Below are positions 9,510 through 56,396 of a DNA stretch of 64,000 bases, in pieces. Source of the stretch: Pagrus major. Taxonomy: Eukaryota; Chordata; Actinopteri; Spariformes; Sparidae. The stretch is taken from the NCBI RefSeq assembly GCF_040436345.1, contig NC_133230.1, positions 17,122,197 to 17,186,196 of the forward strand, in the 5' to 3' direction. Made by a program: the position numbers and the translations under genes. The notes beneath the pieces were generated by a model. The model searched no databases. It worked only from the letters and a program-made list of their open reading frames with translations, and was not told where the DNA came from. How positions within the stretch are numbered: position 1 is the stretch's first letter; each line of letters starts with the position of its first letter.

Positions 9510-10554
9510 ATGGTTGATGCTTTCTGTGCTACATGGAAACTGGTGGACAGCCAGAACTTTGATGACTACATGAAGGCACTTGGTGAGCAAGTTTGATTTG
9601 TTTTTTTATTAATTTGTCTCCTTGAAATAAGAGTTAATTGTTCTCAGTGTGAGTAATGATGTCTGCTGTAGGCTGCATCTATTCTACAAGCGTGTTTCTG
9701 ATAAAGAAGTTGCTTATTTTTGCTCAAATATTTGTACTTTAAGCAAAGCATAATGTGTTTTCTTTTGATTTGTTTTTACAACAGGTGTTGGTTTTGCCAC
9801 TAGACAAGTAGGCAATGTCACCAAACCAACAGTAGCGATCAGCCAGGATGGAGACAAAGTGGTGGTGAAAACCATGAGCACCTTCAGGAACACCGAGATC
9901 TCCTCCAAGCTGGGAGAGGAGTTTGATGAGACTACACCTGATGATCGACACGTCAAAGTAAGCTGAGTAAAAGTCATTGCATAATTTTCACCGCGATGTG
10001 CGCTCTAGCTGGAGGTGGTTTAAAATTTAACTTGCTTGTTTGTGTTTGCAGTCTACTTTCACCTTGGAGGGAGACAAACTTGTGCAAGTGCAGAAGTGGG
10101 ATGGCAAGGAGACCAAATTTGTCAGAGAAATCAAGGATGGGAAGATGGTGATGGTGAGATCACATAACACACACAGCTTGATGGAGTATGATACAAACCC
10201 CTACAGCTGCAAGAGAAGATAAATCTTGTCATGCATGTCACTGTTCTTACATTTACAACTTGCAAAGTAGTTATGTAAAGCATTTTGAATTGCCTTGTTG
10301 TGCAAACGTGCCTAACAGATAAACTTGCCTCGCCTTGTTATTGCTATGGTGAAATAAATTATACGACTAGAATGATGTAAGGAAAACTTGCTTAACATTC
10401 AGTATGCATCATTTCTAGATTTTGCATTAAAAGCACGAATAAATATTGACCACCATCATGTAACACAGGCTGTCCTCTGCTTTGTCTCCTCTCTGCCTCA
10501 CAGACTTTGACTTATCAGGGAGTCCAGGCGGTCCGCACATACGAGAAAGCCTAA
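9510..10554 (+). CDS. fabp7: Brain-type fatty acid-binding protein
   Basis: Small cytosolic lipid chaperone that binds long-chain polyunsaturated fatty acids, typically in radial glia. Four exons: 9510-9582, 9785-9957, 10052-10153 and 10504-10554, joining to 399 nt (132 residues plus TAA). The number of exons, their sizes (73, 173, 102 and 51 nt) and the protein length match the classical FABP gene plan. The protein starts [20 protein letters not shown], contains [17 protein letters not shown] and ends VRTYEKA. These closely match FABP7 and fit it better than the heart (FABP3) or other paralogues. The C-terminal Arg-x-Tyr fatty-acid carboxylate pair is present (VRTYEKA). Teleosts often keep fabp7a and fabp7b; which copy this is cannot be decided from the window. 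Confidence 0.96.
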
Positions 10555-14744: not shown

Positions 14745-14830
14745 TCAAATCTGCAGTGGTGAGAAGGCGTAGAACGGGAACTGGGCCTCGTCCTCGTCCA
14801 CAAAAAAACACTGGAAGTAGGGCAGCTCAT
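14745..14830 (-). CDS. trdn: trdn terminal coding exon, conserved luminal tail
   Basis: 86 nt ending at TGA 14745-14747, with acceptor CCACAG just upstream. It encodes DELPYFQCFFVDEDEAQFPF followed by YAFSPLQI. The aromatic YFQC core and FPF motif match the C-terminus of skeletal triadin (FFQCVYLDGYNG and FQFPFTP). The single cysteine corresponds to the human C-terminal cysteine reported to form disulfides. This exon is the strongest single piece of evidence for the gene's identity. Confidence 0.9.
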
Positions 14831-17800
14831 CTGTGGAGGGAGTTCAGAATAATATGTTCATCACTTCTATCTGTCATCCCGAGAGAAGACTGAGTGTGCT
14901 GTTCGCACACTTGTGTGATATTTTGCTTATGAGAAGGGAATTTGGACTCACCCTCCATCTGAAAGCTGTCTGATACAGAAGGCTCTGCTATCGGAAAGAG
15001 AACATGATGTTAACCATAAAACAATACAGTGTTCTATTACCCTGAATTATTGCTTCAATAAGCAATAATTCAGTACCTTTTACTTTTTCCTCTTTGGCAA
15101 CTTTCTTCTTTTCTAGAACAAAAAAGAAGAATTTCCATGCATAAATAAAAGTATAGTTAGAAGTGGTAGTAAAGTATTTCAAACACTTAAAATTTAGTTG
15201 CAAAACAAACAACTGTACCTTTCTTTGCAGGCTCCTGTATCTCTTTAAGAACTCTGTCCACTGTTACAAAAGATTGATAATGATTAACTAAATGCAGGGG
15301 AATATGCAAATGCTGGTGCTGTTTATATAATTCACACAGACATTTCCCTAATCTATTTACATTAAAGGAAAATTTCACACAAATATGAAAATTCAGTCAT
15401 TATCTTCTCACTCTCATGCTGATGGATAGTCAGATAAAGTTTCATCGTCCACAAAACATTTCTGGAGCTGCACATCAAAACAGAGTTGAGCTAGAGATCC
15501 GAAACTGAGATGTTATTATCAAAAAGACATTATTTATACCCTTTTTAAAGCCAACATCTTCACCTAAGTTGCTAAGCTAAAAGTGTTAGCAAAGATCCTG
15601 TCCAAAGTGGGTGCACAAGCTCGACCACACGTCAGGGGTTTAAATAATGTCATTTCAAATCCATTTGGGATCTCAGTGCTTCAGGAGACTTGGATTATGC
15701 TGTATGAGCTGTATGGAGCAATTGTATGTTATTTTTCAGCTGTTTCTTTCTACATTTTAAAACAAGTCCCCATCTACCTCAGTTGTTTTAGCGAATGCTG
15801 CAGAAATGTTTTGTAAGCTATGAAACTGCACTTGAATTTCCGTCCACATGAGAAGATAATGACTTAATTAAAATTTTTGGGCGAATTTATTCGTTAACTT
15901 TCAACCTACCTTTTGCTTTCTCCTCTCTGGCTGCCTTCTTCTCAACTGTTTTTTCTACAATAAACAAATACATAAAGTTTCACGAATAATTAGGTCTAAA
16001 GTGTACAGTGGTAGTTGTACTGTAAACCGTTTGGTCAGTTTCTTAAAAGTGAAGATACCTTTCTTTACAGGCTCTTGTTTTTCTTTAGGAACTCTGTCTT
16101 CTGAAATAAATCAAAATGATGACAAACCATGAAATGATCAAGCAGCTGCTCTGTCCTCTTGCAGTTTCAAAAGTATTTTCCATAAATTCACAGTATATTG
16201 ATGTATTAATGTACTCAACACAGATTGTATGCAGTACCTTTCTTTGCTGCACTGGGTTTGACCTTTGCTTTTGAGACCTCAGGCTCTGTTTCACAAATAT
16301 AAGTGAGAAATTGGCAATTACAATATTGCTGACCCCTCAGGGCTTGTGTTAACTAGTATAGCGTATGCATCTTTTACCAGAGTAGATTCAGGATGACATT
16401 AATGTGGCTGATTTACTGCAGCGTCTCTTCATAATGATATGTTGTTATGAACAGACATGCCTAGGGTCCCAAAGCAAAAACTGAAAACATCACTGCCAAT
16501 AGACTTTCTAGGGTTATTAAAAATGTCTAACATGCATGTGCAGTAAGCTACTGGAAAATATTGCTGAACTCTCTGTACACTTACTGTCTATAAGCCTAAG
16601 ATTTATAGACAAAGAAGTCAAAATTGTTGTTATTTTTGTTTATAAGGATTCATAACAGAATATCTTCTTGCTGAATAAAAACACATTTCTAAATCTTAAT
16701 TTTTAATGTTTTCTATAAAGGATGTCGAGTATCACATTCAGCAGGAAAATATTCTCAGGTTTCAGCAGCAGCTGGTAGAAATGTCTGTTTCCCCTCTAAA
16801 TAAACCAATGGCTACATTCACAGACTGCAGTGGCCTTCATGTTGTAATCAGATTACATGTTGCACTCGGCTTGGTACATGAAGTGCTGCCTCTACTGAAG
16901 CACTACAGTTGTACCTTTCTTCACACGGACTGGTTTAGGCTTTTCCCTGAACATGGCTGCACCATCAGGAAGAAAATGCAATTGATAAAGCATACAGTTC
17001 TTTTCTTTGTGGAATGATTTCTAATAGATATATTTATACTATAATATCTATATAGACTATAAAACCTTATTAAGATAGCCTCAAATGCATCACCAAATTG
17101 AGATTCTTGTTGCATCATAATCTGATCTGAACAATGCTGATATGTACAATAACAGTATTCATTGTTGCAGACACTGTACCTTTCTTCACTGCAGCAGGTT
17201 TGTCCTTTTCTTTTGGAGTCTCCAGTTCTGCAAAAGGAAAAATAAGGTCACAGGATCTCAACAGTGGAAGTCACAATTATCTAATTGTCCAAAAAGGCAT
17301 ATTGCAGCTGGAGCCACAGCACAACCACAACAAAACTGAGTTTCTAAAACCTTAAAGCAGCTCACACAGCATGAGAAATCTATGGCTAGAAAGCTGTAAT
17401 TTGTGTTAGAAAGTGAGAAAACACTATTGATTTGTGCCTTTAACATCAGCAGCTGGTTTGGGCTGAATATATTAGGCATCTGGTGATTATAACCAAGAAG
17501 TCTTTATGTACTTATTGTTGCTTTTTTATCATCTCCTCAAATGTGAAATGGACATATAATGCTATTTCCTCATTATACATGAAATAATCTGTGAAAATCA
17601 CTCAACCAGAGTTTCACCTCTTTTAAAGCGTATGGCTCTATATAATGCATATTTTCTACATGTTCTCGTAGCTTTCATTTGCCTAAACACAGTTTGTACT
17701 AGGTGCAAACCTCCGTTCTAGAGCTAAGGGCTTGAAGCGTCCATTTATGTTCCACGCATTTCAACATTTACAACACATTGTAAATGTTTGTTGGCTTGGA

Positions 17801-20800
17801 TATAATTTGCTGTGTAATCGCAGCTCTTTATTGTCCATGAATTAGTGGGTAAGAGGTGAGTAATAAAAGCTTGATGAATTATCAACTACGCCTATCTAAG
17901 CAGGCATACAGTATTCTTAAAGATCATTGTATGGAAGCAGCTGTTTGCCGATGCAGCTGCTGCAGAGGAATCAACCTCCATTTCCTGTACATTACATCCT
18001 CTACAGTGATTTATTGATCTCGTATGCAAAGTGCTTGTTTCCCTCGTGAGCCGTCCAATCAGAGCTTTTACACATGACCTACATCCTGTGACCAGATAAC
18101 TGTAATTACAAGGATGTAGATGGAGCACCACTAATGTACCATTCTTGACATGGACTGGTTTGGCCTTTTCCCCTCAATAATGCTGATCCATCAGGGGGAA
18201 AATACAATAAATGTTTACTTGTGACAATGCTTGCCCTTTAATTACCACAGTGACACACAAAGCATTTTGTTTTTCATTTATAATTAAAAGTTTTATGTAT
18301 TTGTCACCTAACATGACAATGTGAGCTGCAGGTGTCATCATTTTTGTACCTTTTGTGAAAGCTGGCTTGACTTTGTCCACTGATACTTTGGGCTCTGAGT
18401 AAATGTATGAATTTATTGGTTCTCATGAGCTTTGTTGTTATTTAGTGTGATAACATGTTAGAGTTCCTTTAGTGAACCTACGGGATTATAATATAGACTC
18501 ACCAGCAGTTTATTAGGTGTAACCAGCCAAAACTAATGCATCTGTATAACTCAGTACAGTTCAAAAGCAACACAAACTGCAGCAGAAGTTGAATCAACAA
18601 ATACTTAACTTTATTATCGTCATAAAGGTTGTATTAATTGCATTAGCTTTAGCTAGGTTCACCTAATAAATTGGCAACTGTGTATAGATGATAATATTCT
18701 TTCTTCTAAGCTACAAGCCCAGAAAATCATCTTCAGGCTGATGATTTTGGCAGGCTACCTTTCTTCTTTAGGAGTGATTTGACCTTTTCCTTCTTTGTCC
18801 CAGTCTCTGTTTTAGAAGGAGCTAATTCAAAGGAATAACATTTTTTCAACATTTTTTTTTAACTCAAATATGAATATGTATACTATGTCTTGTTGTAATT
18901 AAATATTTACCTTTCTTTTCATGAGCTGGCTTAGGCTTCTCCTTTGGGACCTCAGGTGCTGCAGCAAAACACAGGGTGAAAATGAGTTCAGTTTTCGTGT
19001 TAACAAGAGTTATCTTTTCGCCAAATAATGATTGATTGTATCAGAATTACCCTTTTTGGCAAGAGCTGGCTTGGCCTCAGCTTCTATAGGGAATAAATAC
19101 AAAATAAATGCCTGTTTTTTGGGTTTTTTTTTTAAATAAATAATAGATTTATGAATAATCCGATGACATTGTATAATATTTCTTGGAGATGTGATTGAGA
19201 TTTTTGTTAAAAAAAACAAACAAATTGTCATTATCTTGTGGCTGTAAAGCATGAACACTGATTAGCATTTCATCAGCAGACACATGTTAATCTCCTCTAA
19301 AGCACGACAGAAACACACTTGTGCTGCATACCTTTCTTCTTTTCAGCAGTCTTTGCTTTGATAACAGGCGCTAGAAAAATACACGGCCCTATTAATTCTA
19401 ATGTATACAGTTAAGCGAGAAAACAACAAAGAAACTACAGTCGCAAAGCCAAACCTTTTGTGGGAGTCAGTGGCTTGGCCTTCTTCTCCTTGAGAACCTC
19501 AGCTTCGAAAGCAAATGATAATAGTAACACAAATATCAGTGGAGTTGGCCATTTCCAGCACGTTGTGACCATGTCACCATACCCGATTTACAACTAATGC
19601 AGCTTATTACCCTGAAATTGAAGCATTCAGACTAAAAATTGTTAAGAAAGCAGGCTGTCAAAATTAAAAATGAAATAACAGTGAAAGTATTTTAATTACT
19701 GTAATTACCTTTTTTAGTTGGTGCTGGTTTGACTTTCTCTTTTGGAGTTACAGGCACTAATGAAGAGAAAATATTACAGTGAAATGGTTCAAGTTAAACA
19801 AAAACTGACTAGCTGAAATGGTGAGCATATACACAATCTTAAAATGAGCTGTAAAAAAACCAAACAGACGGACCTTTCTTCAGTGGCACAACCTTCACCT
19901 TCTCCTTTGTTAGCGAGACATTTTTGTGTGGTACTTCTGCCTCTGTAAGAAAAAACGAATGAGAATGAAAATCAGTGACTTCATTATTAAAACATTAACA
20001 TAAATGTTGATTGGTGTCCTCTTACCTTTAACAACTGGGGTGGCTTTTTTCTTGAGTGGAGCAAGTTCTGTAAAAAGAGAGTTTAGGTTCATCATCACAG
20101 AAAATAAGATGACACATTGGACCGAATGTAAGGTAAGCTCTTACCTCTCTGTGCTAGAACTGGTTTGGGTTTCTCTTTTGAAACCTCAGCTGCTTAAGAA
20201 AACATATGACATGATGTTCAGCATGCAAAACCAAAACCTGTGATGGCATGAACATTTTGATGTTTGCAATGTTAAAAGTTTGCCAAACCTGTCTTTGCAG
20301 AGACTGCTTTGACTTTCTCTTTTGGTGCCTTGACAACTGAAAACAAAAAAACAAACACAGGTGTATGCTTAGGATCACTGACGCAAACCACTGAAACATG
20401 GAAGAATCTAAAACCAATCAAAGCTATACACCAAAAAAAATTTTACCTTTTTTCATGGGCACTATTTTGACTCTCTCTTTTACCAGAGTGGCGTTTCTGG
20501 GAGTCTCCTCTTGTTCTGTGGAAATACAATACACATACAGTATGAAATTGTTGCTCAAGATCCAGTTAGCTGGATATTTTCATGTCCATTATAAAATGCA
20601 ACACTGACCTTTTTTCAAGGTGACTGGTTTGGCCTTTTCTTTATCAGCTTTAACAGCTTCTGTGTGTCGAGAACGCAAGGTTTCTTATAGCAGGACAGTT
20701 TTATTTCCATTGTGACAAAAAAATAATAATAATGTTTCTCTTTGGTGATAAGAACATTATGAACTAATAATGTGCACGTTACCTTTCTTAGCAGGAGCTG

Positions 20801-23800
20801 CTTTGGCCTTTTCCTTTGAAACTTTTGTGTCAAGAAACAGGGCAAAAGGTTAGAATAGCTTGACTGTAAACTGAAATTAATTAGGTATATCCTGCAATCT
20901 ATGTACAGACAACAATCACAATATTGTTAAGTCTAAAAATGTTCTCATATGAGTAGTTTTAGTAGTTTTTGGAAGGTGTTGAAGAACATTAGTTGTGAAA
21001 ACTAATGCAGTCTAATACAAGGGTCCTATAATAAATTGTGTCTTGATGAAGATCATAATGTTGAGTTTTTGTTGATTCAACTATAATATCTGTAGTTTGT
21101 GGTGCTGTTGAACTGTATCGTATAAATTTGGTTGTTGATGCAAAGATTTCAAGTGTTTCTGCGTCAGTGAGTCTTTGCATTACCTGATTTTACAGGTTCA
21201 GGTTTGAGTTTTTCCTTTGGTTCCTTCTTGGGCTCCTTGGGAGCTGCCACTGGTGGAAAATGCAAAATGCAAAGTTTCTGACTAGAATATGGTCAAGTTT
21301 AATTCTTGAAATGATTAATATAACAATAAAAAAAATCAATACAAAAGAATAAAAGCATGCTCATACCTTTCTTTGCAGGTTCTGCTTTGGCTTTCAGCTT
21401 AGGAGCTTCAGAAACTTCTATTATTGGAATATTCAAAAAGATAATTCATGAGCTCATCTTAGCTTGACATTAACTCCACCTACATGTGAAACTGCATCAC
21501 TGCAGGCACTAGCCAACATGTAATGGTAGCACTCAATACAAACTATAATCATAATTATTTTGCCTATGGTTTATAATGTCACACACTGTAACAAGTTCAC
21601 ATGTGGTTACACTGAGTGTGGCCTGTTACTTACCTATTTTTGTAACATTAAGATGTTCCTTTTTCAGGACAGGAGCTATCTGCTTTCTTACAGCTTTGAC
21701 CACCTTTACTGTCTTCTTGGGTTCATCAGCTGAAATGAACAGCAGAAAGATTATGATACAATTTAGTGTCATACTGTTTTATTTCATTCTATTACATTTT
21801 GTTTTTTAACTCTACAAAGCATCGTTCAGTATTGCTGATGAAATCTGACTGATATCTTGCCATTTTATTTTATTTTTTATCTAAAGAGGTGTTGATTCAA
21901 CTGTAAGATCAGTAGTTTGTGATTCAGTAGAACTGTATTAATTTGGTTGTTGATGTAAGGATTTCCAGTGTTTTATTTTCTTATATTCCTCTCGCTCTCT
22001 GGCTTCGACTGCAGCGTCAGTGAATCTTTGCATTACCTGATTTTACAGATTCAGGTTTGATTTTTTGCTTTGGCTCCTTCTTGGGCTCCTTGGGAGCTGC
22101 CACTGGTGGAAAATTATGACATCAAAAAGCCTTAGCTATACATAAAGGCACATGTTTATTATGTGACACTTAATATGTAGTTTTTTATGTGTTCTACACA
22201 TAAAAAAATCAGTGTCAGCAAAGGAAAAATATGCTAAATATTTGGCTTAAATATGTTAAGATGAAGTTTAATTCTTGAAAGGGCTGATTAAAGATTGATA
22301 GGCTATGAGGTTATGTAGCATCTAAACCGCTAAATAACGTAAAACTACTTTTTCTTGAATTGACAATTGACACAAAAGAATGAAAGCATGCTCATACCTT
22401 TCTTTGCAGGTTCTGCTTTGGCTTTTGCCTTAGGAACCTCGGGAACCTCTGTTATTGGGGATAATTCATAAATATAATGTATTAGTTTATCTTAGCTCCA
22501 TATTGATCCATGCTTTAAATGTAATGTAAATATATTACTACTAGAATAGTTTTGAATACTGTTCAATTCCTCTTGACCCAAAGCTGAGTGTGGCCTGTTA
22601 CATACCTGTTTTTGTAACATTAACAAGTTCCTTTTTCAGAACAGGAACTATATGCTTTTTGACAGCTTTCACAGTCTTTTGGGGTTCATCAGCTGAAATG
22701 CAGAAGAAAGATTATGCTATAATTTATAATTATGCAACTTTGGTAGGAATAGTCAAATGTTCCTTTTTTGTGTATTTGCTAAACATTGTATTGCTGGCCT
22801 ATGCATACCTGTCTTATCCTCTTTCCTCTTGACAGGTTCTTTGTCTTTGGCAGTCTTCTTAATTTCTTTCTCTTCTTTAGAAGGCTTTGCTGGCTCTGTC
22901 TTTTGTTCTTTCTCTTCTTTGAGAGGTTTCTTTATGTCTTTCTCTTCTTTGGATGGTTTCTTGACCTCTTTCTCTTCTTTGAGAGGTTTCTTGACTTCTT
23001 TCTCTTCTTTGAGAGGTTTCTTTACGTCTTTCTCTTCTTTGGATGGTTTCTTGACTTCTTTCTCTTCTTTGATGGGTTTCTTGACTTCTTTCTCTTCTTG
23101 GACAGGTTTCTTGACCTCTTTCTCTTCTTTGAGAGGTTTCTTGACTTCTGTCTCTTTTTTGATGGGCTTCTTTACTTCTTTCTCTTCTTTGGATGGTTTC
23201 TTGACTTCTTTCTCTTCTTTGGATGGTGCCTTTACTTCTTTCTCTTCTTTGATGGGTTTCTTGACTTCTGGCTCTTCTTTGAGAGGTTTCTTGACCTCTT
23301 TCTCTTCTATGGATGATGGCTTTACTTCTTTCTCTTCTTTGAGAGGTTTCTTGACTTCTGTTTCTTTTTTGATGGGCTTCTTTACTTCTTTCTCTTCTTT
23401 GAGAGGTTTCTTGACTTCTGTTTCTTTTTTGATGGGCTTCTTTACTTCTTTCTCTTCTTTGGATGGTGCCTTTACTTCTTTCTCTTCTTTGATGGGTTTC
23501 TTGACTTCTTTCTCTTCTTTGAGAGGTTTTTTGACTTCTTTCTCTTCTTTGATGGGTTTCTTGACTTCTTTCTCTTCTTTGGGTGGTGCCTTTACTTCTG
23601 TTTCTTCTTTGATGGGTTTCTTGTCTTTCTGTTCTTTAGATGGTTTCTTGATCTCTTTCTCTACTTTGAGAGGCGTTTTTACTTCTTTCTCTTCTTTGAT
23701 TGGTTTCTTGACTTCTTTCTCTTCTTTGGATGGTTTCTTGATGTCTTTCTCATCTTTGGATGGTTTCTTGACCTCTTTCTCTTCTTTGGGTGGTGTCTTT

Positions 23801-26800
23801 ACTTCTTTCTCTTCTTTGATGGGTTTCTTGACTCCTTTCTCTTCTTTGAGAGGTTTCTTCACTTCTTTCTCATCTTTGGATGGTTTCGTTACCTCTTTGT
23901 CTTCTTTGGATGGTTTTTTGACTTCTTCCTCTTCTTTGATGGGTTTCTTGTCTTTCTGTTCTTTAGATGGTTTCTTGATCTCTTTCTCTACTTTGAGAGG
24001 CGTTTTTACTTCTTTCTCTTCTTTGATGGGTTTCTTGACTTCTTTCTCTTCTTTGGATGGTTTCTTGACCTCTTTCTCTTCTTTGGGTGGTGTCTTTACT
24101 TCTTTCTCTTCTTTGATGGGTTTCTTGACTTCTTTCTCTTCTTTGAGAGGTTTCTTCACTTCTTTCTCATCTTTGGATGGTTTTGTTACCTCTTTGTCTT
24201 CTTTGGATGGTTTCTTGACTTCTTCCTCTTCTTTGAGAGGTTTCTTGACTTCTTGCTCGTCTTTGATAGGTTTCTTGTCTTGTTTTTCTTCTTTGGATGG
24301 TTTCTTGACCTCTTTCTCTTCTTTGGATGGTGCCTTTACTTCTTTCTCTTCTTTGAGAGGTTTCTTGACTTCTTTCTCTTCTTTGATGGGTTTCTTGACT
24401 TCTTTTTCTTCTTTGGATGGTTTCTTGATGTCTTTCTCTTCTTTGGGTGGTGTCTTTACTTCTTTCTCTTCTTTGATGGGTTTCTTGACTTCTTTCTCTT
24501 CTTTGAGAGGTTTCTTCACTTCTTTCTCATCTTTGGATGGTTTTGTTACCTCTTTTTCTTCTTTGGATGGTTTCTTGATGTCTTTCTCTTCTTTGGATGG
24601 TTTCTTGACCTCTTTTTCTTCTTTGGATGGTGCCTTTACTTCTTTCTCGTCTTTGGATGGTTTCTTGGCTTCTTTCTCTTCTTTGGATGGTGCCTTTACT
24701 CCTTTTTCTTCTTTGGATGGTGCCTTTATTTCTTTCTCTTCTTTGAGGTGTTTCTTAACTTCTTTCTCCTCTTTGATGGGTTTCTTGACTTCTTTTTCTT
24801 CTTTGGATGGTTTCTTGACCTCTTTTTCTTCTTTGGATGGTACCTTTACTTCTTTCTCTTCTTTGATGGGTTCCTTGACTTCTTTCTCTTCTTTGGATGG
24901 TTTCTTGACTTCTTTTTTTTCTTTGAGGTGCTTCTTAACTTCTTTCTCTACTTTGATGGGTTTCTTGACTTCTTTTTCTTCTTTGGATGGTTTCTTGATG
25001 TCTTCCTCTTTTTTGGATGGTTTCTTGACCTCTTTCTCTTCTTTGGATGGTGCCTTTACTTCTTTCTCTTCTTTGAGGTGCTTCTTAACTTCTTTCTCTA
25101 CTTTGATGGGTTTCTTGACTTCTTTTTCTTCTTTGGATGGTTTCTTGATGTCTTTCTCTTCTTTGGGTGGTTCCTTGACCTCTTTCTCTTCTTTGGATGG
25201 TACCTTTAGTTCTTTTTCTTCTTTGAGGTGCTTCTTAACTTCTTTCTCTACTTTGATGGGTTTCTTGACTTCTTTTTCTTCTTTGGATGGTTTCTTGATG
25301 TCTTTCTCTTCTTTGGGTGGTTCCTTGACCTCTTTCTCTTCTTTGGATGGTACCTTTAGTTCTTTTTCTTCTTTGATGGGTTCCTTGACTTCTTTCTTGT
25401 CTTTGGATGGTGCCTTTACTTCTTTTTCTTCTTTGGTGGGTTTCTTGACTTCTTTCTCTTCTTTGGATGGTTTCTTGACTTCTTTTTCTTCTTTGGATGG
25501 TTTCTTGACTTCTTTCTCTTCTTTGGTGGGTTTCTTGACTTCTTTCTTTTCTTTGGATGGTTTCTTGACTTCTTTTTCTTCTTTGGATGGTTTCTTGACC
25601 TCTTTCTCTTCTTTGAGAGGTTTCTTCATTTCTTTCTCTTCTTTGAGAGGTTTCTTGACTTCTTTCTCTTCTTTGGATGGTTTCTTAACCTCTGTTTCTT
25701 TTTTGAGAGGTTTCTTGACTTCTTTCTCTTCTTTTGATGGTGTCTTTACCTCTTCCTCTTCTTTGAGAGGTTTCTTCACTTCTTTCTCTTCTTTGGGTGG
25801 TTTCTTGACCTCTTTGTCTTCTTTGAGAGGTTGCTTGACTTCTTTCTCTACTTTGAGAGGTTTCTTGACCTCTTTCTCTTCTTTGAGAGGTTGCTTGACT
25901 TCTTTCTCTACTTTGAGAGGTTTCTTGACCTCTTTCTCTTCTTTGGATGGTTTCTTGACTTCTTCCTCTTCTTTGAGAGGTTTCTTGACTTCTCTCTCTT
26001 CTTTGAGAGGTTCCTTGACTTGTTTCTCTTCTTTGGATGGTTTCTTGACCTCTTTGTCTTCTTTGGATGGCTTCTTGACTTCTTCCTCTTCTTTGAGAGG
26101 TTTCTTGACTTCTCTCTCGTCTTTGAGAGGTTTCTTGACTTCTCTCTCTTCTTTGAGAGGTTTCTTGACCTCTTTCTCTTCTTTGAGAGGTTTCTTGACT
26201 TGTTTCTTTTCTTTGAGAAGTTTCTTGACTTCTTCCTCTTCTTTGAGAGGTTTCTTGACTTCTTTCTCTTCTTTGGATGGTTTCTTCAACTCTTTGTCTT
26301 CTTTGAGAGGTTTCTTGAGTTCTTTCTCTTCTTTGGATGGTTTCTTGACTTTTTCCTCTTCTTTGAGAGGTTTCTTGACCTCTTTCTCTTCTTTGAGAGG
26401 TTTCTTGACTTCTTTCTCTTCTTTGGATGGTTTCTTGACTTTTTCCTCTTCTTTGAGAGGTTTCTTGACTTCTTTCTCTTCTTTAAGAGGTTTCTTTACT
26501 TCTTCCTTTTCTTTGAGAGGTTTCTTGACCTCTTTCTCTTCTTTGGATGGTTTCTTTAACTCTTTGTCTTCTTTGAGAGGTTTCTTTACTTCTTTCTCTT
26601 CTTTGAGAGGTTTCTTGACTTCTTTCTCTTCTTTGGATGGTTTCTTCAACTCTTTGTCTTCTTTGAGAGGTTTCTTCACTTCTTTCTCTTCTTTGGATGG
26701 TTTCTTGACCTCTTTGTCTTCTTTGGATGGTTTCTTGACTTCTTTCTCTTCTTTAAGAGGTTTCTTTACTTCTTCCTTTTCTTTGAGGGGTTTCTTTACT

Positions 26801-29800
26801 TCTTCCAATTCTTTGGGTGTCTGTTCTGCTTTTTTGTCTTTAGATGGCTTTGGTTCTTCTAAAAGTTCATCAAGTTATAAAAACTGTCAGTTCTTTATGT
26901 ACCGTAACATGTCTGTAACAGACTACACAGCTAGAGTATACTGTCATCTTTGTGTACAAGTGGGAATGTTGCTTATATGGAAACAATAGAAAATGCTGAA
27001 TAACTATCATACGTATATGCTTATAGTGATAACATATGCATATACACTAAGGTTAAACAAAGAAATTATTGAACATCATTCTGTTTCGAACCTATTTCAT
27101 ACTTTGTACATAAACTCTACAAAAGGCTGGTTTCTGTGTTTACACAGGTACATGTCCATGTACAATATTTGAACTTTCTGATGAAGTGTAATTACCTTTG
27201 AGCCTCTGTTGTTTCTTCTGAACTGGTTTGGCCTCCTCCTTTGGCTTTTCCTCTTCTAGTTTTATCTTTATGGTCTCCTCATGTTTGGCTTCTTTCTCTT
27301 TTTTCTCCTCTTTTTCAGTTTCTGCAGCTTTGAGGTCTGTAAACAACCATATTCATAAGTAAAGTTATCAGGTGCTCATGTAGATAGAGTACATTCTTGT
27401 TTTACTAAGTTGTATCAAATCAATGTATTCAATGAGAAAATTAGGAAACATAAAAATATCTGGGGAGAAAACAAAGTGGAGGGTGCACAATTTCAAGAAC
27501 ATTACCTTTCATAATGGCATCTTTAACTTCTTTTATTGCGTGCCTTTCCTTTGCCTCTTTGAGAACTAAAGTATTTCATGCAGAAATATATATAAATATA
27601 CAGTACATAAGAGAGCAATTCTAGCCAAAAGTCAGACCAGCAATATAGTCATCACGACAAGTAATCATGCTTGCCTAGGAAGCACTGTAAGCATTACACA
27701 CTAAAAACACTATGGCTACAAACACACCAAAAGCATTCCAAAAATGTCCTCATCCAGAAATCAATCAATGTTTTTCTCAGTCCTTTAGCTCCATCTAGCT
27801 GCTGTCTCTACTAATGGCTCACTGCCTGAGGCAATGACTGCTCAGTTTAAAGAAGGAACACTTAAGCTGCCAATTTAATTAGCACTTTAGGAAATAGATT
27901 TGTCCTCACGTAGTTATCAAGATGAAAAAAAAGCACAGTTAAAGGAGCTGGAATTAACAGGTGATGTACTAGCCCCAAGATCCTCTTTCAGTGCAGCTAT
28001 TCACACCTAAGTCAGGATGAGTTTCTGATGTAAATAAAACTTGACTTGACATTATCATATCCATCTCTATAGGTTTTTTAAATTTAATGTGCTAATCTTT
28101 CTTGTGGTCAGATGAGTTTAACAGTTTAGTTCCTATGTGTCCAGTACAGATAGCTATTGGTTAAGCACACAAACTTATGTTTATAGAGGACTAGCCTATA
28201 TATTATGATCCCAGACTGATCAATGCAGATACACAAATAACGACCAAGATTTCCTTGGAGCCCCAAAAACTGAGGTGAAGACATGTCCGAGTGAGTTTGC
28301 TAGCTCAACTTAAGCAGATATTTTGCACTTCTCATAAGGTTTTACAAATTGTTTTGTAGAGTGACAAACAGAAAGGAGAGGTGGGGGAAAATAACTGGAA
28401 GAACAGGTGTTTCTTGTCCTGAGGAGTTTTGGAGGATAGGCTAGTCATTCAAACACACCATAGGTGCTCTGCACACACAGTCCATGCATACTGTGCTAGC
28501 TAACGTTACAGCTAACGTAGTCAAAACATAGGCCGTTTAAGGCAAGAATACAAAACATTTTGGTCAAATAACACATGTCATGAATTTACTTGTGGTCAAT
28601 GTGATCCGTAAAACAACAAAAATATTAGCTTAGCTTATCTAATTACAAGCAGGTGAAGAAAGTTAGCCTAGCACAGGGATTTGCAAAGAGGGTCTATATT
28701 ATATCATAAAGTCCAAGTGTATATTTAAAGTATTGCTTGTACAACATTATAATTATTTGCATTACCTCTGTTTTGTAGCTCCTCTTTGCATGACGCTTTG
28801 GTGGATGTAAACAGGAAGTACAATGTTGCCAGGGAGCAGGTGAGTTAGCTGTGGGCTACAACTTGAGTCCTGGTATTTTTTTTTACCTGTATTTGTATTT
28901 GTTTACAATTTGTCTAATTGGAACTATTAAAAGTAGGCCATTAGCAGTTCCTGTTTACAATTTACCCAAGGGTGTACAGACAGCTATCTCTGGATTACTT
29001 TGACGCTAAAGAAAACTAAAAAATACTGTGATTTTAAGGCAAGTTCTGCAGTTATTAGGATCATCTTTTTTGTGTTTTTATGGATGTTTCACGATAGACG
29101 TAAGAGATAATCATATCCTAGGGAAGTATAAGTCACACTCATTACTGAATATAAATGACACAGAGATTTCTGATATCAGCCTTCGCCTCTGATTCTGGGT
29201 AAAACAGCAAACATTTCCTAAAACCAATCTAATCTGTTTAATCTGTAATGAAACACCTTTTGTGATGAAACAAGGTTTAAAAGCTTGGTGCTCTGCTTGA
29301 TGATGAACACTCAGAACAAAACAGCAAAAACACAATGTTAACAAAAAGCACTGAAATAAAATATACGAAATAATATACATGAGACGTTCAAGTATCTGTT
29401 AGGCCCTTAAAACTAGTCATGTCACAAAGCATTTAGTGTGTCATTCGAAAACATGTTAAGGAAATGTAAAGATGATAAATACTCATACTATCATTCCAAA
29501 TTACATTCATCATGATGAACACACTCACCATTCAAAAAAATTTTTTTAACCTGCTAATGAAGAAAATGATGAAACATACATGAGAGTAATGGTAAAAGTG
29601 TTGTACCTTTCTCATGCTTGTGATCAGCTCTTGATCCAAGTCTTCTGAGCCTCTCATGGGGAATATGAACCTTCCTCTTTCGTTTAAGTTCAGGTTTCCC
29701 ACTTTCACTGTTGTTGTTGTTTTCATCATGATCGTCGATGATGTCGGAGTATTCGTCTTCGTCGAGAACAGTCGTCCCTTCTTCCTCATCATCGGATTCA

Positions 29801-32800
29801 GGTGCTACGCTGGCATTATCGAGTTTCTCAGCTGACAGGATTTTAAGGTCAAGCTGTTGGACAGATGGCTCTTTTTCTTCCTCTTTATCATCCACCTCCA
29901 CGTGAATCTCCATTTCTTCCTGTTTTTCTTCTTCTTCTTCTTCCTCATCCTCCTCATAGAAAGACTCATCATCATGAAGATCTAAAGCTTGATCGTCCTG
30001 GTCAGTTTTTGAAAACTCTTCTTTGACACCAATGTCGCTTATTATAATGTTTTCTTTGTCTTTTTCTTCATGAAGATCTTTATCTTCAATCTCCTCCTCA
30101 TCAGCCTCTTCTTCTGTTTTTGTGTCCTCCTCCTTCTCCTCCTCTTCTATAGCATCTTCAGTTTTTGTACCCTCTTCTTCCTCCTTCTCATCTTCCATTT
30201 TGGTCTCCTCAACCTCTTCTACTCTCTCCTCCTCCTCCTCAATGTGTACCAAAACTTCTTCAGCTTTGGTCTCCATCTCCAGCTCTTCCTCCTCCTCATC
30301 TTCTACCACATTTTCTCCTGTTTTTGTCTCCCCCTCCTCCTCCAAATGTACCAAAACTTCATCAGCTCTGGTCTCCTCCTCCTCCTCAACTTCTACCACC
30401 TTTTCTGCTGTTTCGGTTTCCTCCTCCTCCTCACTGTGTACCAAAACTTCATCAGCTGTGGTCTCCTCCTCCTCCTCTCCCTCCTCCTCATCTTCTACTC
30501 CCTCTTCCGCTGTTTTGGTTTCCTCCTCCCCTTGTACTAAAACTTCTTCAGCTTTGGTCTCCACCTCCTCCTCCTCATCATCATCATCATCTTCTACCCC
30601 CTCTTCCACTGTTTTGGTTTCCTCCTCCCCGTGCACCAAAACTTCCTCATCTTTGGTCTCCTCCTCCTCATTTTCTACCACTTCTTCTTCTGTTTTTGTC
30701 TCCTCCCCCTCCCCGTGTACCAAAACTTCTTCAGCTTTGGCCTCCTCCTCCTTCTCCCCCTCCTCTGCTTCTATCTCAACCTCTTCATTTTTAATATCTC
30801 CATCTTCTTGTTCTTCCTCGTCATCTGCTGTTTTTAATTCATCCTCTTCTGTAACAATGCCGCCGTCATATTCTTTCTCCTCCTCCTCTTCCTCAATGTT
30901 TGCTGCATCCCACTCGGTTTTAATGATCTCTTCCTCCTCCTTCTTAGTATCCCCCTCTACTGCTTCTTCCTCTTCCTCTTCCTCCTTGCCGTCATCATGG
31001 AGGAGCTCCTCATCTTCCGGTGCTCGTTCATGTTCCGTTTCTTCGACGTCGACATGTTTCACTAGTGATGTGATAGCAACAAATTTAGTGCCTTTTATCG
31101 ATCTTGTATCTGACTAAAAAATTGGACTATTAAAGAAAAACCGTGTGAAAGAAAAACCGTGTGAATACCATCATCTTCCTCTGCCGCTGTCAGATCTGCT
31201 TCAGAGGGAACTTCAGCTTCCTCCTCCATCTTTGAGTCTGGGGCTTCACTTAACTCTGCAGCAGCAGCAGCAGCAGCTTCTTCTTTGGCAGCTTGCATGA
31301 TCTCTGTAACTGTATCATCCACCCATGTGACCTTTTTAATCCGACCTTCACCTTCACGCATTTTTATACAGAAATGCAGCTCCGAAAACTTGTTTTAAGG
31401 TACAGAAAGAATTTGATGGGGTGAAATGACCGTTCATAGCATTACATAGTACACAGCACATGCGGAAGTTAATAACTTTCAACATATGCTCATATCAGGT
31501 TAAAAGCCTGCAAACTCCCCTCCAGTTAGTTAGAACTGAAGATGCATCTTGAATGAAAGGTGAAACGTCTTCAAGAAACTGAAACAAGTCCAGCACTTAA
31601 AATATGCTCATATCTTTACAATTTCCTTGTTGTCAGCAAATCTTGAAATGACCAAAACCGAGTAAAGAGTAGAGTTTACTGTGGTAAATCTTTAAAAGTG
31701 TGTCACAAGTGTATAGTTTCATTTTAAGTAACTTCCTGAAACAGCTGGGCACTTCACTTTTTAGTAAACTTTACCTGAAAAGAGCAGTAAATAATGGTTT
31801 TTGTTGGGGGCTATTTTTAGCTGCGTATGTACACATATTTAATGCTCAGTGAGTACTGATTGGAGCAGAACAGTGTATGTGGGATTGATTGAAAATAAAC
31901 TAAAAGTAAACAGAAATGGAGGTCTAAGGTAGGTATGGGTACAAGTAATAGATTAATCAAGTAATAATCAGACATGTACCTTTTCCATCTTACATTGCTT
32001 TTTCTAAATACTGTAAAATACTGTTAATACTGTATACCAAACTTCAAATATTCTTTTTTCACATTATGGGGTTGTTTGTAGCCTTATGCTAGAGAGTTTC
32101 TCTAAGTCCATTTATAGTTGACCTTTTTTTAGTCCCTTAAAGTTTTTAGGAAGTACAGTTCACCCTATACGAATCTCTGATGGCGCATTTGATATATTTT
32201 ACTGCCACAGAGGAAATACATTTCTGATAAGTGGAAATGTCAGCCAGGAACTGCCAGTGTCACAGATGATAAGTGGGTAAAAAAGACAGTCGCAACTATG
32301 CTGAAAACTGTCAGAGGAAATATATCAGGATCCTGACAGGAGAGCATCTGAGTATGTAGCTGATATACATTAACATGGGATTTACATTATGATTTAATGG
32401 ACGTATTTCATGTTAACTTTCGCATCTTAGAATTAGTTGGGTCAATATAGCGGATAATTTAGCAGTCAGTGCAAATGTCTCTCATCTATGGTGCAAAAAA
32501 AACAAACAAGATATCTTCTTCATTTCATGGGAATTGATGACAAACAGAAACATTTAGACTATTGCCAGACTTATTCCAAAAATATTACCACCCACCATTG
32601 ATTTAGTGAGTAATATTCTGAAGGCTAACTTTTGAAACATGTTGTACTGATGATTTATGATTATTCCATGCAAAGACAAAATGAAATACTCGGCACGGAC
32701 ACACACGTCATCCAATACAAACAATCCAGATACAAACAATCCAGATACAAACAGCATACAGGATATGACAGATGTTTAAATTGTTGAAATACAGGTGGCA

Positions 32801-35800
32801 GACACATATTAAAGACGCCTTTTCAAGCTCAACATAACAAAACTTTTTAACATATGACACAAAATATGATGAGTGGAACAAAAAGATGTGAATGCAGAGT
32901 TCAGTGAAATGTAACATCCAACAAACAGTCAGTGTGACAAACAAAGGAAGAGATGCAGTCACCAGGTCATAGATGTTTATTCCAGTGAAAGTATACAGTG
33001 GTTATGATAAAAAATTGTTCATGCCATAATTAATAGAGTTTGTTCAAACATCACATACAGTTACATCATACATTAGAAAAAGACATAAGGCAGACTTGAG
33101 ACCGGTTCATACAAAGACAAACAAAAATCAATGCAAACATGCTTGAAAGGCCACTATTTGCGGGCAGCACACATTAAACCTGTCCATAACAAACATCATA
33201 GTGTGGCGTTTTCTTACCTTTTTCTAAAGGTGGCAGGAATTCACCTACATTAGAAAGAAGAAAATAAAAAAATGACAATTAGCTTAATATTTTAACCATT
33301 ATTTTTATTGTCTGTATTGTGACAGCAAGGAAAATTATTGCCATTACTTACCTTTCCTCTGTACCAATTTTATATCAGGCACGGGAGCTACGATTTCATC
33401 TAGTCAAACAGAAGAAAAAGACATGTTGTAGTTTGCAGAAATAGGCTAGTAAGATGCTTTTAGGTTTATTAAAACTAATAAAAAGTAAAACCTTTTTCAG
33501 TCACTATGTGTACAACCGGTGTGGCAGCAGGTTCACCTAAAACATGAGAAGAAAATATGGCAAAATATGCATCAAGATTTTTTAATATACATATTTTTGT
33601 CTTTCTGGATCAGAAGTATTGAAGCATTTGAATTAAAAAGACAAGCATACCTTGATCACCAACAAGCATGCTTGACATGGAAGCTATAAACAAATCCTTC
33701 TTGTCTGACATTTCCAGAATGGCATCTTCAACGACTTTCATGGGGTCAATGGACACTTCAGGCATGATCCCTGAAATATCAGCACACCACAAACTCAGTC
33801 AGAGCTGCTGTTCATAATACTAACATATACAACTTCAGATTGTTCACTGTTTCTCCCATTACAATATATATTTGTATACCTTTTTCCAAAGAGAAATATG
33901 AGCAGTCCCATAAAAAGTAAACTCATGGTGACATACCAGCAACCGTAATGTGGCTGATATGTAAATTATACGTTGTCATGTGTGAAAACAGACCTTGTTC
34001 GCCAATCAGCATTGAGGAGATGTAGCCCACAAGCATGCTGATTTGTTCTGTGGTGATTTCTGCTGTTCTCTTCAGGGCTGACATGGGGCTGAATCCCAAA
34101 GCATTCTGGATACCTGATCAACAGAAAGTCACAAGTAAAAGTACTGTATTCAAAACCTTGCTGAAGTAAAGTAAGTCAGCAAATTTGTCTTAAAGTGGCA
34201 AAAAGTACTCATACTTCCCTATCACGGTTTTACTATTATGTTTTTGACTAATATCACTGCATTAATGTGAATGTTGCATTTTATCGGCTGATTTTCAGTA
34301 TTCTCTTATACTTTTGAGTAGTTTAATCGACAGCAAAGCTTCATATTCTGTAAGATTATTATACTGTATGTACTGTATGTATTCCTGTGAGAACCACATA
34401 TCTTTAAAAATGAAAACTAGCCTGTATACATATATATACATATTACTTAACTTAAGAAGTAGGAGGATTTCCTCTGAAATTTAGTGGAGTAGAAGTATTA
34501 AGTAGCATAAATGAAAATGCTCAAGTACAGTACAAGTACCTCAAATATATACTTAAGTAGCCTAATATACTTGGTGACATCCCAGGTATTGTAGAGATAC
34601 ACATACATAGATTAGGTAAAAGTTAATAACCACGACAGATACTGTACCTTGTACTGCGTCCAGTATTACATCCATGATTGCACAGAGAACATCTTGGATG
34701 TATCCTGCTATTCCACTCACAAAGTCGTTAGTAACACTGAAGACATTTCTGCCAATAACCACAGGGTCAATGAAGCTAACGTCAGTGGTTCCTGAGAAGA
34801 ACAACACACATCCAGGCCCAAAACTCCGGTTAGTTACTTCATTCAACAAATTATTCTGTCATTTAGTTGAAAAGACAGTTAATGACCAATCAATGATTAA
34901 TTTTCTCTTTAAAAAAACAAAACTATATATCTATAACAAATACAAACGTTATTAACTAATAATGTTGGTTTAGTCATGAGTTAAGGGTTCAACAATACAG
35001 ACATAATTATATTTAATGTAAAGGTTAGAATATGAAGCAGGTACCTTTTGTTATGTCCAGTATTTTGTCTACGATGGCACAAAGCACGTCCTGGATGTAG
35101 CCCACTATTCCACTCAGAGTGTCATTAGTAACACTGAAGGCATCTCTGCCAACTACCACAGGGTCCATGAAGCTGACGTCAGTGGTTCCTGGGGGAAAAC
35201 AAATAAGCACAAAGAACAAATATGTAAAATCAAAACGGTGTGCTGCGTTAATGGCCATTTTAAGATGTTAGGAGGTTTAATACCTTTCACTACATTCAGA
35301 ACAGTGTCCAGGATGGCACAGAGCACATCCTGGATGTAGCCCACCACTCCACATGTGAATTCATTAATAACATTGAAGACACCTCTGCCTATGACCACAG
35401 GGTCAATGTAGCTAACGTCAGTTTTTCCTGAGAAAACAAGGACATTTGTGAGGGAAAAACTAATTTATTAATATCAAACTCAGCAAGAATTATTGAAGTA
35501 GAGTTTTAGATGAATGAATCAAATGATTAGTCGTTTTTACACATTTAATTAGAATATTTATCATGCTATTTTCTTGTGAATTCAAAGGATTCCTTTGTAA
35601 GAAATAAGCATTAAAATATAGAATACGTACCTTTATTAATGTCCAATATAGTATCCAATACAGTATCCACTATAGCACACAATGTGTCCCTGAAGGAGCC
35701 TACAACTCCACCCATGAAGTCATTCGTTGAGTGGAAAGCCCGTCTACCAATGACCACAGGGTCAACATAGTCGAGGTAGAAGTTCCCTGTGGGATCATTA

Positions 35801-46370: not shown

Positions 46371-56396
<10,026 letters not shown>

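Follow-up and report, generated by a model that had tools for sequence, protein, structure and literature searches.

A giant exon of 130 charged decapeptides in a probable triadin-like duplicate of Pagrus major, and its possible role as a calsequestrin tether

A stretch of 64,000 nucleotides of the Pagrus major genome (the window; contig NC_133230.1, positions 17,122,197 to 17,186,196) contains a triadin-like gene, one exon of which (exon 18 of the gene model, read on the minus strand from 26858 to 22809) consists of a long array of Lys/Glu/Pro decapeptides (Table 1). The array is read here, with a probability of about one half, as coding sequence: an exon of a diverged triadin duplicate whose product acts as a multivalent electrostatic tether for calsequestrin. 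The luminal arm of triadin secures calsequestrin next to the release channel; in mammals this arm is spread over many small exons, which makes it difficult to test there how its length and charge affect calcium storage. A duplicate with a single giant repeat exon, beside a conventional copy in the same genome, would make the question testable. The gene would also exemplify the divergence of duplicate genes through repeat growth inside one exon. Among the results listed by searches of open-licence literature, none describes an exon of this kind.

The sequence-only reading that drew attention to this locus proposed a single exon with canonical splice sites and phase 1 at both ends, and its coordinates proved exact: the exon is bordered by a ttttag acceptor and a gtatgc donor, and contains 1,349 full codons. 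Stops are absent from the coding frame, compared with 48 and 17 in the other two sense frames. Its estimate of about 130 decapeptides was likewise borne out by a count of 130 ten-residue units, which are accompanied by two nine-residue units and one four-residue break, all preserving the frame. The 30-nucleotide period, which had been called near-perfect, is so in length (130.7 copies with 0% indels according to Tandem Repeats Finder) but not in sequence (81% matches, 88 units distinct as DNA, mean pairwise identity 0.82). The encoded residues include 497 Lys, 364 Glu, 139 Pro and 121 Val (approximately 160 kDa in total), and the first codon of the unit specifies Ser in 51 cases, Leu in 46, Ile in 22, Pro in eight, Thr in two and Val in one. 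Exon 18 is a repeat array far beyond chance.

Within the exon, segments of 193-389 nt are repeated at 92-94% identity, the longest exact repeat being 160 nt, and it is proposed that the array grew by in-frame duplication of units and segments inside one exon. The window, part of C16 in an assembly of 25 contigs (786 Mb), is free of N. A DNA search of the genome that skips very common words placed 20 of 23 matches inside exon 18 itself, and the remaining three weak matches (on C20 and C5) are Glu-rich or simple repeats without the decapeptide.

The openness of the frame is by itself weak support for coding, because an array copies the open frame of its unit and because an antisense frame is also open across the array (1,419 codons). 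Substitution patterns are more informative. Measured against the consensus, the coding frame has 188 synonymous changes (106 expected) and 286 nonsynonymous changes (353 expected), an observed/expected ratio of nonsynonymous to synonymous changes (N/S) of 0.46, compared with 0.87 and 2.17 in the other sense frames and 0.72, 1.37 and 2.88 in the antisense frames; an antisense reading of the array, although its frame is open, was rejected on its value of 1.37. With codon 1 of the unit removed (mostly Ser, Leu or Ile), the ratio over codons 2-10 is 0.23 (block-bootstrap range 0.19-0.36). As repeat units are not independent, the 88 that are distinct were also joined in a minimum spanning tree, along which 144 changes were counted with N/S of 0.56-0.64 (three seeds, p 0.0004-0.008) and an expectation of about three stops in the array. 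The stop-class changes scored (one or two on the tree, one against the consensus) are taken as within-codon steps at two-base differences rather than as stops, since exon 18 holds none. In the most favourable of the coding tests, a simulation of 144 independent changes that ignores shared ancestry, the coding frame survived without a stop in none of 1,000 arrays, and the antisense frame that is actually open did so in 56 of 1,000. Among the six listed pairs of duplicated segments, nonsynonymous codon changes exceed synonymous ones in five and equal them in the sixth (nine each), which points to weak or recent constraint. Overall, these counts indicate that exon 18 is coding, apparently under moderate purifying selection.

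The sequence-only reading had called the gene triadin, and this holds for the family but not for the closest member of it in the genome. None of the features observed speaks to its suggestion of tuning to sonic or eye muscle. Alignment to a human triadin sequence (729 residues), used for all human comparisons here, gave a score of 72 for the membrane exon (shuffle maximum 48, 0 of 300 as high) and, more narrowly, 39 for the C-terminal exon of FFQC...FPF type (shuffle maximum 37, 0 of 300), while neither end of the giant exon (94 and 132 of 300 shuffles scoring as well) nor exon 17 (132 of 300) rose above shuffled sequences. With 17.9 bits, the membrane exon does not reach the 23-bit cut-off of Pfam family PF05279 and is not among the seven matches to that family in the genome. 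Six of these exceed the cut-off; two are membrane exons of triadin-like type on C22, and the others lie in pairs on C21 and C19. Among 14 control genomes, two had matches, neither above the cut-off. PF05279 is named for aspartyl beta-hydroxylase and was for that reason not taken as defining triadin, and its matches on C21 and C19 are taken as putative ASPH genes. Aspartyl beta-hydroxylase (junctin) was rejected as the identity of the window gene because its C-terminal exon is triadin-like and stronger PF05279 matches are those on C21 and C19. No relative of the membrane exon was confirmed in the viral and prokaryote collections.

The closest triadin of this genome appears to be the gene on C22 rather than that of the window: its membrane exon at 10.207 Mb is 57% identical to the human sequence over 68 residues (E 2e-23), versus 28% for the window exon (E 2e-4, under search settings that differ from those for C22). 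The two P. major membrane exons are 38% identical to each other (E 0.09), and the C22 gene also has a triadin-like C-terminal exon (48% identical to that of the window gene over 21 residues). Each of the two genes has a fabp7 gene as a neighbour, on the same side and equally oriented, at a distance of approximately 4 kb in the window and 82 kb on C22; the genome has 17 fabp-type matches in all. In human, FABP7 and TRDN are likewise neighbours. Because of this shared position, the window gene is probably a divergent triadin-like duplicate of the C22 gene, and the pair probably arose in the genome duplication of teleosts. A large acidic exon, of 633 codons, is present in the C22 copy too, whereas an array of 30-nt period is missing from the Tandem Repeats Finder output for the 60 kb covered there; thus, large acidic exons would be common to both copies and the basic array would belong to the window gene alone. 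Another membrane exon of triadin-like type, the third (C22:23561770-23561958, plus strand), is 50% identical to the C22:10.2-Mb exon, and a scan of 50 kb recognised no further exons of its gene. Zebrafish triadin has about 30% conservation with the human protein in an account whose available portion does not mention a giant exon (PMC8471218).

In the favoured mechanism, the predicted protein would run from its membrane segment through an acidic block into a 1,349-residue, proline-broken basic arm (net charge +107) in the lumen of the sarcoplasmic reticulum. This arm, probably disordered, would make many weak contacts with long Asp-rich calsequestrin tails, and one triadin-like chain could keep several calsequestrin polymers in place, and at a distance from each other, close to the release channel. 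In mammals, the luminal KEKE motif of triadin is a binding site for the Asp-rich end of CASQ1 (PMC8080761), and the calsequestrin anchors, 4.3 nm long in mouse, consist mainly of triadin (PMC3388061). In P. major, the arm and the calsequestrin tails are complementary in charge, and contact between them is predicted on that ground.

The calsequestrin family (PF01216) has 31 matches at four loci in this genome, and three of the four genes encode long acidic tails. Beyond the EDVLSG motif of the last exon, there are 85 residues on C21 (82 of them Asp or Glu), 73 on C9 (61), 63 on C10 (60) and 39 on C24 (20); the C21 tail includes 80 consecutive Asp encoded by mixed GAC and GAT codons. After the same point, there are 18 residues in PDB chain 1a8y (rabbit CASQ1) and 13 in 3uom (human CASQ1), where this is perhaps the end of the construct. 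It is conceivable, although doubtful, that the basic 130-unit arm and the poly-Asp tails (up to 80) grew together into a dense, perhaps phase-separated, calcium-storing junctional mesh, possibly tuned by Fam20C on the Ser-x-Glu sites of the array.

Several observations weigh against the tether and its co-expansion with the tails. KEKE motifs are strictly stretches longer than 12 residues that lack W, Y, F and P, consist of K/E/D to more than 60% and contain no run of five like charges (PMC3427183). The sequence-only reading, which spoke of the KEKE lumen of human triadin, is right as to a charged Lys/Glu/Pro repeat, but the strict definition is satisfied by only six stretches of exon 18 (110 of 1,349 residues), compared with 12 stretches in human triadin as a control (252 of 729 residues), because it forbids the Pro that recurs about every ten residues of the array; hence the mammalian binding data may not carry over. 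A strict KEKE stretch of 53 residues begins where exon 15 ends and continues across exons 16-17, immediately ahead of exon 18. Tethering in itself can do without the array, since the C22 triadin shows none in the 60 kb covered. The C24 tail is short, the cardiac calsequestrin chain 2vaf, aligned without gaps, would have about 31 residues beyond EDVLSG, and mature Fundulus calsequestrin has 414 residues (PMC3511267) versus 367 in 1a8y. Long tails may therefore be general in teleosts, and the co-expansion of array and tails amounts to a correlation within one genome.

A mostly neutral expansion, in which an easily duplicated charged unit spread by unequal exchange as tolerated filler in a relaxed duplicate gene, is a possible but rather doubtful explanation. 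It would account for the excess of nonsynonymous changes between duplicated segments, the wide variation of codon 1, the missing array at the C22 copy and an event-based N/S only moderately below 1, but it sits poorly with the ratio of 0.23 over codons 2-10 and with departures in unit length that all preserve the frame. Seldom or never including exon 18 in transcripts, or not expressing the gene at all, would be compatible with the weak pyrimidine tract of the acceptor (12 of 20 positions) and with a length of 4 kb, which is very long for an internal exon; this is improbable given the symmetric phase, the fair donor (score 4.5), the 122 GAAGA strings, a type that resembles splicing enhancers, and the purifying signal in the array.

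Two further explanations concern what an arm of this composition would do. It might be a spacer or PEVK-like entropic spring that sets distances in the lumen without binding calsequestrin, as its content of P, E, V and K (83% of residues), its charged fraction of 0.66 and its ten-residue Pro spacing (108 of 138 intervals) would allow; this is unlikely, as no tensile load is known in the lumen and a net positive arm beside polyanionic partners could hardly avoid binding. Alternatively, phosphorylation of Ser-x-Glu sites by Fam20C might switch the charge and binding of the arm. Exon 18 has 46 such sites, versus three in human triadin and a mean of 14.8 in shuffled exon protein. Fam20C favours S-x-E and phosphorylates triadin in transfected cells, and the KEKE motif of mammalian triadin contains such a site (PMC6298778). 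Ser units retain Glu at +2 no more often (44 of 51) than Leu/Ile units do (55 of 68; p 0.47); the sites may thus have come about as a by-product of repetition, and a phosphorylation-tuned arm is an improbable account of the array.

Among known systems, the window gene most resembles triadin (TRDN; Trisk 95/96) in its transmembrane exon, short phase-1 luminal exons, C-terminal YFQC exon and fabp7 neighbour, but it is a divergent duplicate of about 2,927 residues (versus 729 in human) with a 1,349-codon exon and a large acidic exon. The array shares with the triadin KEKE motif (residues 200-232) a Lys/Glu-rich luminal charge pattern with an S-x-E site, but has Pro about every ten residues and some 130 units instead of one motif. 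Its likeness to the PEVK segment of titin, a sarcomeric protein, is one of P/E/V/K composition alone. The piccolo b zinc-finger exons of teleosts are a comparable case of a duplicate gene with one amplified exon-coded module, but there whole exons were amplified (PMC3484663), whereas in the window gene the units multiplied inside one exon.

The gene model joins 46 exons on the minus strand from 36393 to 14745, with all internal boundaries in phase 1, into 2,927 residues (approximately 337 kDa) ending at a stop. It was made by hand and picked for phase-1 exons, and some small-exon boundaries are uncertain, those of exon 14 most of all. Exon 1 was not found: a zebrafish start-region pattern gave no match, and at three mismatches one match versus 1.13 expected by chance. 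Exon 14 was considered as an alternative first exon, having an ATG after a TATAAAA-like string; it was kept, provisionally, as an internal exon with a weak acceptor. Exons 5-8 (34648-35786, minus strand) are four tandem juxtamembrane exons of 144-156 nt each, of VSFIDPVVIGR type, and a three-exon block is present twice (21184-22692, minus strand; exon pairs 84-94% identical). The acidic exon 15, the tandem juxtamembrane exons and the long acidic tails of calsequestrin, a known triadin partner, had escaped the sequence-only reading.

Table 1. Coordinates of the triadin-like gene and its neighbour in the window, and of calsequestrin C-terminal exons elsewhere in the genome
Feature	Position	Strand	Remarks
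Exon 2, cytosolic end and transmembrane segment (LLIALAALLSWVTVGVVMFDFVEYK)	36217..36393	minus	alignment to human triadin above 300/300 shuffles
Exons 3-8, juxtamembrane luminal module	34648..36128	minus	four copies in tandem (exons 5-8), 67-81% nt identity
Exons 9-13, more juxtamembrane exons and short exons	33218..34113	minus	
Exon 14, acceptor uncertain	31169..31351	minus	
Exon 15, acidic, 1,503 nt	29607..31109	minus	230 Asp/Glu and 51 Lys/Arg among its 500 residues
Exons 16-17, nearly all of the strict 53-residue KEKE stretch, directly before exon 18	27196..27565	minus	
Exon 18, giant exon	22809..26858	minus	4,050 nt; 130 decapeptide units; consensus [S/L/I]KEEKEVKKP; net +107
Exons 19-45, short phase-1 exons, many of xxPKEKxKPxxxKK type	15077..22692	minus	
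Exons 46-47, C-terminal end ELPYFQCFFVDEDEAQFPFYAFSPLQI and stop	14745..14987	minus	
fabp7 (brain fatty acid-binding protein), convergent neighbour	9510..10554	plus	used for synteny
Calsequestrin C-terminal exon	C21:9468300-9468900		acidic tail 85 residues
Calsequestrin C-terminal exon	C10:6315000-6315700		acidic tail 63 residues
Calsequestrin C-terminal exon	C9:15519700-15520300		acidic tail 73 residues

A small exon-like stretch with a broken frame (approximately 18139-18182, minus strand) resembles by eye the intact exon at 16956-16915 and is probably a decayed duplicate. The window also contains an exon of a Src-family (FYN-like) kinase (47121-47576, minus strand).

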